Assembly (NCBI RefSeq): GCF_003933965.1
Contig: NZ_RSAJ01000025.1
Span: 1 to 33,238 of the forward strand
Direction: 5' to 3'
DNA length: 33,238 nucleotides
Origin: Streptomyces sp. RP5T
Lineage (GTDB): Bacteria; Actinomycetota; Actinomycetes; Streptomycetales; Streptomycetaceae
How positions within the stretch are numbered: the stretch's first letter is position 1; every line of letters starts with the position of its first letter. The notes beneath the pieces are model-generated. The model made no database searches. It had not been told where the DNA came from and saw only the letters and a program-made list of their open reading frames with translations. This document shows positions 18,105-20,653 of this stretch, piece by piece. Made by a program: the position numbers and the translations under genes.

Positions 18105-18920
18105 ATGTCCCAGCCCGCCAGGTCGTCCCGTACACCAGCCACGTCCGACGCGCCGGAAAGCGCCGCAGGCAGTCGCGCGGCCGCCCAGCGGCTCAAGATG
18201 CGCCGAGAACTGGCCGCCGCCGCGATGGAGCTGTTCTCCACCAAGGGGTACGAGGCGACGACCGTCGACGAGATCGCGGCCGCGGCAGGTGTCGCCCGCC
18301 GCACCTTCTTCCGTCACTTCCGTTCCAAGGAAGAGGCGATCTTCCCCGACCACGACGACACCCTGATCCGGGCGGAGGCCGTGCTCAACGCGGCCCCCGC
18401 GCACGAGCATCCGCTCGACACGGTGTGCCGCGGCATCAAGGAAGTCATGAAGATGTACGCGGCCCGGCCGGAGATCTCGGTCGCCCGCTACAAGCTGACG
18501 CGCGAGGTGCCGACGCTGCGGGAGGCGGAGATCGCGTCGGTGGCCCGCTACGAGCGGCTGTTCACGCGGTATCTGCTCGGGCACTTCGACGAGCACGCGC
18601 ACGACGACGACGCCAACGACGACCCCCTGCTCGCGGAGGTCGCCGCGTCCGCCGTGGTCACGGCCCACAACCACGTGCTGCGGCGCTGGCTGCGGGCCGG
18701 CGGGCAGGGGGACGTCGAGGCCCAGCTGGACCACGCCTTCGCCATCGTGCGCAAGACGTTCGGGACGGGGATCGGGGCGGGACGGGACACCACGACCGCG
18801 ACGCGGCCGGCTCCCGCCGCGGTGACGTCCACGGGCGAGGTGCTGGTGACCGTCGCCCGCACCGACGCACCGCTCGACGAGGTGATGCGGGCCATCGAGC
18901 AGGCGCTCAAGGAGCGCTGA
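18105..18920 (+). CDS. TetR family transcriptional regulator
   Basis: A 271-aa regulator, longer than the usual 190-220 aa. A disordered N-terminal tail (1-25) precedes the DNA-binding domain (about 28-75): RRELAAAAMELFSTKGYEATTVDEIAAAAGVARRTFFRHFRSKEEAIF is the canonical TetR_N helix-turn-helix. The C-terminal ligand domain contains an acidic, His-containing stretch HFDEHAHDDDANDD (161-174). It ends in an extra segment (about 225-271) with STGEVLVTVARTDAPLDEVMRAIEQAL, absent in most TetR proteins. Its place between the dehydrogenase and ccr, on the same strand, makes it the best candidate regulator of this pathway, probably sensing an acyl-CoA; that is inference. The start is ATG 18105 (leaderless). 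An upstream in-frame ATG at 18087 would place the -10 inside the gene. Confidence 0.92.
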   Translation: MSQPARSSRTPATSDAPESAAGSRAAAQRLKMRRELAAAAMELFSTKGYEATTVDEIAAAAGVARRTFFRHFRSKEEAIFPDHDDTLIRAEAVLNAAPAHEHPLDTVCRGIKEVMKMYAARPEISVARYKLTREVPTLREAEIASVARYERLFTRYLLGHFDEHAHDDDANDDPLLAEVAASAVVTAHNHVLRRWLRAGGQGDVEAQLDHAFAIVRKTFGTGIGAGRDTTTATRPAPAAVTSTGEVLVTVARTDAPLDEVMRAIEQALKER

Positions 18921-18942
18921 GCGGTTCTTCGACGCTGTGACG

Positions 18943-18969
18943 ACGGCCACCCTTCGGGGTGGCCGTTTT
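18943..18969 (+). terminator. Intrinsic terminator after the TetR gene
   Basis: ACGGCCACCC-TTCG-GGGTGGCCGT is a perfect 10-bp stem with a UUCG tetraloop, running straight into TTTT. It lies 22 nt past the TetR stop and separates the TetR unit from ccr. Confidence 0.9.
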
Positions 18970-19032
18970 GGCATGTCAGAGCCCCTTTTCCCCTACCTTT
19001 CAGCCCCCGTTCGATCGATCATCGCTCATTTG

Positions 19033-19077
19033 TTACGTAAAGATTTCACCTGAGAGCAATCTCTGGCACTCAGTGCC
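19033..19077. promoter_or_regulatory. Palindromic sites upstream of the ccr promoter
   Basis: TTACGTAA (19033-19040) is an 8-bp palindrome. GGCACT-C-AGTGCC (19065-19077) is a perfect 6-1-6 palindrome directly abutting the predicted -35 at 19078. TGGCAC recurs 22 bp downstream (19064 and 19086), two helical turns away. Position fits a regulator that touches RNA polymerase. No known Streptomyces operator was matched with confidence. Confidence 0.45.
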
Positions 19078-19106
19078 TTGCGGGGTGGCACGCGGTGTCT
19101 TACGTT
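19078..19106 (+). promoter_or_regulatory. Predicted ccr promoter
   Basis: TTGCGG (19078-19083), a 17-bp spacer and TACGTT (19101-19106, TANNNT). Transcription would start near G19111-G19113, about 195 nt before the ccr GTG. It probably drives ccr and the genes behind it. Confidence 0.55.
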
Positions 19107-19108
19107 GA

Positions 19109-19302
19109 AGGTGTCCGGGCGGCCGGCGTGCAGAGACCTTTCGCACGTCGGCTGTCCCAGCAACTCATCGAGCTGCCCGCCCGGACGCCTGCGTCACAGG
19201 CAACCTCCCGCGCCACAAAGCGCTGCCGCACAGCAAGACCGCCGAACCGACGGCACCGACGTAACCCTCAGCGTCTCCCCTCAAGACGCCATTCGCCGGA
19301 GG
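19109..19302 (+). promoter_or_regulatory. Structured ccr 5' leader with three-way-junction potential and anti-SD stretch
   Basis: P1: GTCCGGGCGG (19113-19122) pairs perfectly with CCGCCCGGAC (19177-19186); including upstream bases it extends to 14 pairs with one G-U (19109-19122/19177-19190). Inside it, P2 is CCGGCGTGC (19123-19131) with GCACGTCGG (19143-19151), one G-U. P3 is CAGC (19158-19161) with GCTG (19172-19175). Together they form a three-way junction. GCCTG-CGTCA-CAGGC (19187-19201) competes with the outer pairs of P1. CCTCCCGCG (19204-19212) can pair with the ribosome site, CGCCGGAGG (19294-19302), with one mismatch. GCGTCT/AGACGC (19271-19289) is a further stem. Along with the palindromes and terminator this accounts for the 389-bp gap 18921-19309; no gene is seen there. 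Confidence 0.45.
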
Positions 19303-19309
19303 CAACACC

Positions 19310-20653
19310 GTGACCGTGAAGGACATCCTGGACGCGATCCAGTCGCCGGACTCGACGCCGGCCGACTTCGCCGCCATGCCGCTCCCCGAGTCGTACCGCG
19401 CGATCACCGTGCACAAGGACGAGACGGAGATGTTCGCGGGCCTGGAGACCCGCGACAAGGACCCGCGCAAGTCGATCCACCTCGACGACGTGCCGCTGCC
19501 CGAACTCGGCCCGGGCGAGGCCCTGGTCGCCGTCATGGCATCGAGTGTCAACTACAACTCGGTGTGGACCTCGATCTTCGAGCCGCTGTCCACCTTCGGG
19601 TTCCTGGAGCGCTACGGGCGCACCAACGAGCTGGCCAAGCGGCACGACCTGCCGTACCACATCATCGGCTCCGACCTCGCGGGTGTCGTCCTGCGCACCG
19701 GCCCGGGCGTCAACGCCTGGAAGCCCGGTGACGAGGTCGTCGCGCACTGCCTGTCCGTCGAGATGGAGTCCTCGGACGGCCACAACGACACCATGCTCGA
19801 CCCCGAGCAGCGGATCTGGGGCTTCGAGACCAACTTCGGCGGCCTCGCCGAGATCGCGCTCGTCAAGTCCAACCAGCTGATGCCGAAGCCGGACCACCTC
19901 AGCTGGGAGGAGGCCGCCGCCCCGGGCCTCGTGAACTCGACCGCCTACCGGCAGCTCGTCTCCCGCAACGGCGCCGGCATGAAGCAGGGCGACAACGTCC
20001 TGATCTGGGGCGCGAGCGGTGGACTCGGCTCGTACGCCACCCAGTTCGCGCTCGCCGGTGGCGCCAACCCGATCTGTGTCGTCTCCTCGCCGCAGAAGGC
20101 GGACATCTGCCGGGCGATGGGCGCCGAGGCGATCATCGACCGCAACGCCGAGGGCTACAAGTTCTGGAAGGACGAGCAGACCCAGGACCCGAAGGAGTGG
20201 AAGCGCTTCGGCAAGCGCATCCGCGAACTGACCGGCGGCGAGGACATCGACATCGTCTTCGAGCACCCCGGCCGCGAGACCTTCGGCGCCTCCGTGTTCG
20301 TCACCCGCAAGGGCGGCACCATCACCACCTGCGCCTCCACCTCGGGCTACATGCACGAGTACGACAACCGCTACCTGTGGATGTCGCTGAAGCGGATCAT
20401 CGGCTCGCACTTCGCCAACTACCGCGAGGCCTGGGAGGCCAACCGGCTCATCGCGAAGGGCAAGATCCACCCGACCCTGTCGAAGGTCTACTCCCTGGAG
20501 GAGACCGGCCAGGCCGCCTACGACGTGCACCGCAACCTCCACCAGGGCAAGGTCGGCGTGCTGTGCCTGTCCCCCGAGGAGGGCCTGGGTGTGCGCGACG
20601 AGGAGAAGCGCGCCCAGCACATCGACGCCATCAACCGCTTCCGCAACATCTGA
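19310..20653 (+). CDS. ccr: Crotonyl-CoA carboxylase/reductase
   Basis: A 447-aa zinc-free MDR-superfamily enzyme that reductively carboxylates crotonyl-CoA to (2S)-ethylmalonyl-CoA using NADPH and CO2, the defining step of the ethylmalonyl-CoA pathway. It is full length. The NADPH-binding Rossmann region is near LIWGASGGLGSYATQFA (231-247). The four residues known to hold CO2 in characterised Ccr/Ecr enzymes are present: Asn81 (SSVNYN), Phe172 and Glu173 (WGFETNFGG) and His367 (IIGSHFANY). It therefore should carboxylate and not merely reduce. GTG 19310 follows GGAGG with a 7-nt spacer. It leads a tight run of genes: meaA begins 17 nt after its stop. Besides carbon assimilation, the product supplies ethylmalonyl-CoA for polyketide synthesis. 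A terminator, palindromes and a long structured leader precede it. Confidence 0.97.
   Translation: MTVKDILDAIQSPDSTPADFAAMPLPESYRAITVHKDETEMFAGLETRDKDPRKSIHLDDVPLPELGPGEALVAVMASSVNYNSVWTSIFEPLSTFGFLERYGRTNELAKRHDLPYHIIGSDLAGVVLRTGPGVNAWKPGDEVVAHCLSVEMESSDGHNDTMLDPEQRIWGFETNFGGLAEIALVKSNQLMPKPDHLSWEEAAAPGLVNSTAYRQLVSRNGAGMKQGDNVLIWGASGGLGSYATQFALAGGANPICVVSSPQKADICRAMGAEAIIDRNAEGYKFWKDEQTQDPKEWKRFGKRIRELTGGEDIDIVFEHPGRETFGASVFVTRKGGTITTCASTSGYMHEYDNRYLWMSLKRIIGSHFANYREAWEANRLIAKGKIHPTLSKVYSLEETGQAAYDVHRNLHQGKVGVLCLSPEEGLGVRDEEKRAQHIDAINRFRNI

Follow-up and report, generated by a model that had tools for sequence, protein, structure and literature searches.

Crotonyl-CoA carboxylase/reductase, encoded by ccr, commits acetyl-CoA to the ethylmalonyl-CoA pathway. 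In the stretch of Streptomyces DNA analysed here (33,238 nt, hereafter the window), the sequence between the promoter and the start of this gene had been read in a first-pass annotation as a leader laid out like a riboswitch. This raises the question of whether the leader is a conserved RNA element and, if so, what it does. From comparison of sequences, the ccr mRNA of Streptomyces and of several related genera appears to begin with a conserved folded RNA, which probably controls how much enzyme is made.

The nearest relatives of the ccr gene of the window are from Streptomyces and are 97% identical. On its 5′ side, on the same strand, are genes for a protein with two 3-hydroxyacyl-CoA dehydrogenase units and for a TetR-type regulator. 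On its 3′ side are a mutase of the methylmalonyl-CoA family, encoded by the next gene and carrying a B12-binding domain, and an HpcH/HpaI-type lyase. Because of these protein families, we infer that the cluster is an ethylmalonyl-CoA pathway operon. By eye, a strong hairpin with a UUCG loop followed by TTTT can be seen 3′ of the TetR gene (18943–18969); our terminator scan demands five T and therefore missed this short-T hairpin. It is probably the end of the TetR transcript and therefore the ccr leader should have its own promoter. Judged by spacing from the TACGTT hexamer (Table 1), a plausible predicted start of ccr transcription lies near 19111–19113. Of 125 parsed leaders across the family, 106 have the first stem, P1, beginning 6–8 nt past the promoter match; the offset of the remaining 19 is uninformative, because there the script had probably taken the upstream operator as its anchor.

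Table 1. Positions of the ccr leader elements and flanking features in the window.
Feature	Position	Strand	Remarks
Two palindromic operators TGRCACNNNGTGYCA, one mismatch each	19064–19078 and 19086–19100		At the -35 region and between -35 and -10
-10-like hexamer TACGTT of the ccr promoter	19101–19106	+	Read in sequence; spacing to P1
P1, 5′ strand GTCCGGGCGG	19113–19122	+	Perfect 10 bp with 19177–19186; alignments, branch events
P2, optional hairpin arm	19123–19151	+	Stem 19123–19131/19143–19151 (9 bp, one G-U) plus apical stem
J, conserved unpaired UGUCCC	19153–19158	+	GTCCC in 124/125 parsed leaders, with a parser that favours GTCCC where a choice exists
P3, optional variable hairpin	19160–19176	+	Pairs 19161–19166/19170–19175
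P1, 3′ strand CCGCCCGGAC	19177–19186	+	Read in sequence; alignments
P4, hairpin GCCUG-CGUCA-CAGGC with conserved loop	19187–19201	+	P4 pattern in 81/81 loci
Proposed anti-Shine-Dalgarno CCUCCCGCG (= CCTCCCGCG)	19204–19212	+	Conserved in part of the leaders
P7, hairpin GCGUCU-CCCCUCA-AGACGC	19271–19289	+	Loop CCUC 19279–19282 complementary to GAGG 19299–19302
Ribosome site region CGCCGGAGG	19294–19302	+	Read in sequence
Shine-Dalgarno GGAGG of ccr	19298–19302	+	Read in sequence
ccr, crotonyl-CoA carboxylase/reductase, GTG start	19310–20653	+	Zinc-binding dehydrogenase domains; plasmid match to the ccr start annotated ccrA

Every element that the first-pass annotation described is present in its place in the window. 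Reading of the sequence bore out the perfect P1, the P2 stem with its single G-U pair and the GCCTG-CGTCA-CAGGC hairpin now called P4. The third stem exists too, but is better drawn with five pairs and one A-C mismatch (P3 in Table 1) than as 4 bp. Moreover, the 194-nt leader folds at -83.7 kcal/mol compared with -69.1 ± 4.4 for shuffles (z -3.3), and 0 of 200 shuffles folded as well.

A -10-like site together with the P4 pattern was found 5′ of ccr in 81/81 loci, consisting of the window and 80 loci fetched by their ccr gene (78 of them titled Streptomyces); this count used a P4 pattern, but no locus missed it. A wider collection of 224 records yielded 193 that were parsed as leaders, whilst the remaining 31 included non-ccr loci and leaders of the window's type, hereafter type I, that the promoter pattern had missed (L015, L016, L141, L147, L206 etc.). 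A set of 127 representatives was chosen by a search for GCGTCA, and constancy of the P4 loop among them is thus built in; all but L207 and L211 were parsed, giving 125. The three-way junction of the earlier reading is not a fixed feature of this set: P2 and P3 occur together in only 79 of the 125. Because P2 is absent from 30 and P3 from 16, these two stems are optional arms around a core of P1, UGUCCC and P4. P2 is variable in sequence or missing as an arm, P3 varies freely, and UGUCCC and P4 are nearly constant. The non-Streptomyces genera sampled retain P2 and often lack P3. Where the P4 stem is altered on both sides its loop is kept, as in L206 (GGUCUG-CGUCAC-CAGACC), L202 (GCCG-CGUCAC-CGGC) and L201 (GCUCG-GCGUCA-CGAGC); L207 has a P4 with a mismatch. 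A small peptide or an antisense gene was rejected as the conserved entity, given that whole arms are gained and lost regardless of frame.

Two departures from the common layout were also observed. Three minimal leaders (L204, L205 and L212) have P1 closed straight by a loop with UGUCCCCC and are devoid of P2, P3 and P4; P1 and UGUCCC are kept in all three. An additional hairpin is found between the -10 site and P1 in L146, L147 and L173, showing that P1 need not be the extreme 5′ end.

Compensatory change had been named at the outset as the decisive test of the fold, and such changes were found in P2, P3 and, in smaller number, P1 and P4, both in alignments and on a tree. In MAFFT alignment A2, made of 37 chosen P2-containing leaders and not structure-fitted, 91.0% of pair cells are paired, compared with 32–40% when partners are slid by 1–3 columns. 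Twelve pairs changed on both sides, in 54 such cells, against 3–8 and 4–21 in the slid structures; four of five measures beat nearly all shuffles and the other, further pair types, did not (75/500 as high). Alignment of 79 leaders to model R1 (82 sources minus L064, L078 and L085, which gave no match, and with 12 weak opposite-strand matches of E 0.06 to 0.8 removed by a stricter limit) gave 88.8% paired against 25–39% slid. Here 21 pairs and 140 cells changed on both sides, compared with 6–15 and 12–40 in slid structures, and each of the five measures was reached by at most 1 of 500 shuffles.

The input for the tree comprised 100 sources, made up of L206, L213 and 98 of the 127 representatives; six had no match at E 0.05 (L064, L078, L085, L201, L210 and L213); L208, an opposite-strand row of alignment A5, was removed before the branch tests. 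FastTree gave a tree of 94 leaders, in which 32 branches show a pair altered at both positions yet still paired, as counted by our own script rather than R-scape, with tree and test sharing one model-fitted alignment. A null that keeps column rates gave 3.9 ± 2.0 such branches (maximum 10 in 300) and slid structures gave 0–7. P2 had 16 compensatory branch events (null mean 1.9, maximum 7), with no single pair below 0.05, and P3 had 11 (1.7, maximum 7), with 4 of its 8 pairs individually significant. P1 had 4 (0.3, maximum 4, equal to that observed) and P4 had 1 (0.01, maximum 1). With column rates kept, 4/36 pairs were individually significant, all in P3; a cruder null, in which substitutions are spread over all columns, left 2/36. 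Of the 12 column pairs with the strongest coupling, ten are pairs of the structure. Because P1 and P4 hardly vary, each of them by itself rests on few, clean changes. In P1, both sides changed in L026 (GUUC/GAAC), L138, L143, L151 and L152 (GGA/UCC) and L158; L012 and L020 carry the 3′ half alone of the change in L026, and L076 has P1 shortened by one base per side. Judged by these alignments, the fold is well supported as a whole, and its compensatory changes beyond phylogeny, weaker under the cruder null, place it with the structured cis-regulatory leader RNAs.

The element is confined to a narrow range of genomes. Model R1 matched 163/297 family genomes in 8/17 genera, with one match per family genome among the matches listed, and 22/296 class genomes, all in the window's own genus (1/114 genera); model R2 matched 17/246 genomes in 1/103 genera, and as both runs used Infernal's stricter filters, some members were missed. 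Six own-genus genomes gave no R1 match: when read, G060, G064 and G119 proved to have the element (L209, L210 and L222, respectively) and G044 to have a variant (L201), and G098 and G116 contain no ccr at the limit used. Searching for the exact P4 motif returned 18/346 phylum genomes, being 9/10 own-genus genomes and 9 scattered others, compared with 4 phylum genomes among the matches listed for reversed-pattern controls. Within 140 family genomes, a ccr-type gene was present in 133 and the exact P4 motif in 70. The great majority of motif places (63/77) sit 79–185 nt upstream of a ccr match on the same strand, and three of the other 14 (in G006, G119 and G138:C38) also precede a ccr start when read. 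Together with the 81/81 loci, these counts give the element a steady place in the 5′ leader of one gene. It was absent upstream of the five other ccr copies that were read (L214, L215, L219, L220 and L223).

How might such a leader act on the gene? The earlier reading held that P4 is a switching helix, in competition with an outer extension of P1. However, an extension of at least 3 pairs exists in only 26/127 leaders, and we rejected this switch as a general feature. It also held that an anti-Shine-Dalgarno (anti-SD) follows P4. This stretch is present and may be real in the relatives of the window, but it was not shown to be a general mechanism and was rejected as such. CCTCC lies within 16 nt after P4 in 60/127 leaders, and pairing of the post-P4 stretch with the SD is predicted at a probability >0.5 in 48/127 (0.96 in the window). 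A run of at least 5 pairs with the SD is possible in 99/127, the mean run being 4.9 vs 4.0 for other leader windows, and the SD is scarcely less accessible than in shuffled leaders (mean 0.16 vs 0.20; lower in 17/26). Downstream sequences that could pair with J or with the P4 loop were no longer than by chance (5.42 vs 5.47 and 5.05 vs 5.03 in shuffles), and pseudoknot partners for both were rejected; the same search returned no conserved pairing joining the 5′ domain to P7. A scan needing five T returned 0 terminator-like sites in 18800–19500, and reading of the sequence found no TTTT between 19111 and 19309. These two results point away from intrinsic attenuation, and a terminator or attenuator was rejected.

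Better conserved than the anti-SD is P7, the hairpin beside the SD. Within the 50 nt that precede the SD, 103/127 type I leaders have a hairpin (at least 4 bp) that carries CCUC in the loop, compared with 15.1 expected from shuffled letters, where the shuffles preserve letters only and related leaders are not independent. P7 stems vary in step (GCGCC/GGCGC, GCGUC/GACGC, GCACC/GGGUGC) and the loop is constant. The geometry of P7 and SD in the window, with a stem of 6 bp, a loop stem of 4 bp and linkers of 2, 1 and 9 nt, would make an H-type pseudoknot feasible. The P7 loop and the SD hardly vary, so that their pairing is without covariation support. Another CCCUCA is found immediately 5′ of P7 (AACCCTCAGCG; 19265–19283 in the window), and many leaders have it further upstream as well, as either a repeated single-stranded motif or chance in C-rich sequence.

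A second type of leader is found upstream of ccr in the sister genera g3, g4, g11 and g14 (L184–L193, L198–L200, L203 and L233–L267). It shares the same kind of operators and promoter and has a different conserved start, CAC[CT][AG]GUC[AG]CGGCG, strictly matched in 44/49 loci, with L262 a near variant. A hairpin with a UGUCCG loop is present in 38/44, and its stem covaries (GCCGG/CCGGC in most, ACCGG/CCGGU in five). CCCTC is in a hairpin loop before the SD in 44/44, with a stem of at least 5 bp in 43, a count made with no shuffle control. Neither feature was seen in the six g2 and g5 upstreams read (L194–L197, L268 and L270). Type I and type II thus share two features, a loop with UGUCC and a CCCUC ahead of the SD; the shared UGUCC loop could be chance, the shared CCCUC less easily. 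A far-reaching reading of this likeness is that the two types are unrelated RNAs that follow one kind of promoter and operators and convey a common acetyl-CoA or acyl-CoA signal, for which each would use an exposed UGUCC loop together with the CCCUC-loop hairpin, found in both, that closes the ribosome site. Control of the ethylmalonyl-CoA pathway by RNA would then be of a new class, possibly with the first natural RNA sensor of an acyl-CoA; we think this reading decidedly unlikely. We know of no earlier natural RNA sensor of an acyl-CoA.

By eye, the TGRCACNNNGTGYCA operators could be recognised in those leaders of both types that were read; none were seen in g2 or g5. Nine exact TGRCACNNNGTGYCA places exist elsewhere in the genome, of which three precede, by eye, genes like those of malate synthase (L226), pyruvate phosphate dikinase (L230) and a FabG-type reductase (L232). 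Possibly, therefore, the operators mark the acetate regulon of one regulator. AccR was rejected as their owner, since its motif as printed in the available text, GTTAA-N6-TTAAC, differs (PMC10933834). The GlnR-enriched promoters of S. venezuelae include that of the SCO6473 orthologue (crotonyl-CoA reductase), according to the accessible part of one study (PMC3087709). In S. tsukubaensis, the ccr1 mRNA is reported as present during growth on acetate, and in glucose/dextrin medium as too scarce to be quantified (PMC4606968, available text). As this mRNA follows the carbon source, much of the control may be at the promoter; the carbon source is the natural signal.

To our best reading we give an even chance. 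This holds that the leader is a lineage-specific cis-regulatory RNA in which P1-J-P4 is the recognition domain, on the 5′ side, and P7-SD the module for translation, on the 3′ side, and it takes in protein and metabolite control as sub-cases. Comparison of the leaders supports it with a P1 near the predicted 5′ end, a near-invariant UGUCCC, a P4 with a fixed CGUCA(C) loop, the optional P2 and P3, and a P7 with a CCCUC loop. Transcription would begin at about 19111, and P1, J and P4 would form a recognition surface for one trans factor, a protein or else a metabolite, linked with the status of acetyl-CoA or acyl-CoA. The output would be translation initiation; in the off state a small H-type pseudoknot may form between CCUC of the P7 loop and GAGG in the SD. 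Against this reading we count the three leaders without P4 (L204, L205 and L212) and the lack of any single significant pair outside P3.

The nature of the factor divides the sub-cases. An RNA-binding protein, perhaps Ccr itself or another pathway enzyme, might recognise UGUCCC and the P4 loop and repress or activate translation, a possibility that we put a little short of even. The single-gene, single-family distribution of the element resembles that of autogenous leaders, and a constant P4 loop on a variable stem speaks for it as well; no binding protein is known, however, and the loop CGUCA is not among the Streptomyces aconitase target loops in the available text of PMC3912134. Alternatively, P1-J-P4 with P2 and P3 might act on the SD as an aptamer that binds a CoA ester, coenzyme B12 or some other pathway compound. 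Conserved unpaired nucleotides around variable arms would suit such a metabolite riboswitch, as would the position of ccr at the start of the ethylmalonyl-CoA pathway with a B12-binding domain encoded in the next gene. Yet in the samples searched the element serves one gene in one family only, which is narrow for a riboswitch class; moreover, no Rfam match was obtained, so it is not the known cobalamin class, and no conserved coupling to the SD was found. We consider a riboswitch unlikely. With a single gene served in a single family, we lean somewhat towards a protein rather than a metabolite.

Two further accounts dispense with sensing or with RNA altogether. A 5′-terminal structure might stabilise the mRNA by slowing decay or blocking 5′ entry, in keeping with P1 at the predicted 5′ end in 106/125 parsed leaders. 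Such a stabiliser, whose probability we rate as low as that of the riboswitch, leaves the invariant UGUCCC and CGUCA unexplained, and in L146 and L147 a hairpin is inserted between promoter and P1, though the inserted hairpin would itself be 5′-terminal. Conservation at the level of DNA, by transcription factor sites within the transcribed region, is suggested by palindromes in P4 and the promoter and by the two TGRCACNNNGTGYCA operators preceding the leader. However, P4 keeps its spacer whilst its arms vary in step, the reverse of a palindromic operator, P1, P2 and P3 compensate, and whole arms are gained and lost; we regard this account as very improbable.

A conserved RNA layer makes ccr regulation directly testable and offers a handle for precursor engineering, and the covariance models built here detect the element across the family. 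In the available text of PMC4606968, disruption of ccr in S. tsukubaensis abolishes growth on acetate, overexpressed ccr can supply ethylmalonyl-CoA to a polyketide, and regulation of ccr is discussed as expression level and transcription regulators only.

Is the leader a known RNA? The first-pass annotation recognised no known riboswitch class, and Rfam 15 agrees, with 0 matches at the gathering score in the window; within 18950–19330 the top score was 19.2 bits against a gathering score of 66, and the cobalamin family model gave no match up to E 5. Among the matches listed in a literature search of titles and abstracts, which took in neither supplements nor subscription papers, there was no RNA element of ccr. 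Crotonyl is absent from the main texts of transcript and RNA surveys of S. avermitilis, S. lividans, S. clavuligerus and S. coelicolor and of a comparative Streptomyces survey, and Streptomyces is not mentioned in a survey of 26 genomes. By these comparisons the ccr leader is real and, as far as we searched, undescribed.

Several known systems nonetheless resemble it in part. Autogenous protein-binding leaders, of the ribosomal protein type, likewise serve one gene in one lineage and have conserved loops in a 5′ leader near the SD, but ccr encodes a metabolic enzyme and no protein is known for it. The cobalamin riboswitch (RF00174) is also a leader RNA known in Streptomyces (PMC8079986, available text), and a B12-binding domain is encoded by the gene next to ccr; in contrast, the ccr leader fails the family model. 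The iron-responsive-like elements bound by AcnA are hairpins in Streptomyces leaders of central metabolism, with target loops given as CAGUG, CAGCG, GAGAG and GGGAG in the accessible text of PMC3912134. The P4 loop, CGUCA(C), is not CAGUG-like and lies outside those listed, so that an aconitase-type hairpin was rejected for P4, the one hairpin compared. Also alike in kind are the livJ, dauA, pntA and asfR leader motifs from a survey of 50 bacterial genomes including S. avermitilis (PMC11109978). Crotonyl and ccr are absent from its main text, and its supplement may hold a low-ranked ccr motif. As described in the available text, these motifs belong to other genes than the ccr leader, but like it they are structured, occur only or mostly in Streptomyces, serve one kind of gene each and have no ligand assigned; the dauA motif, moreover, includes the SD in a three-stem junction.
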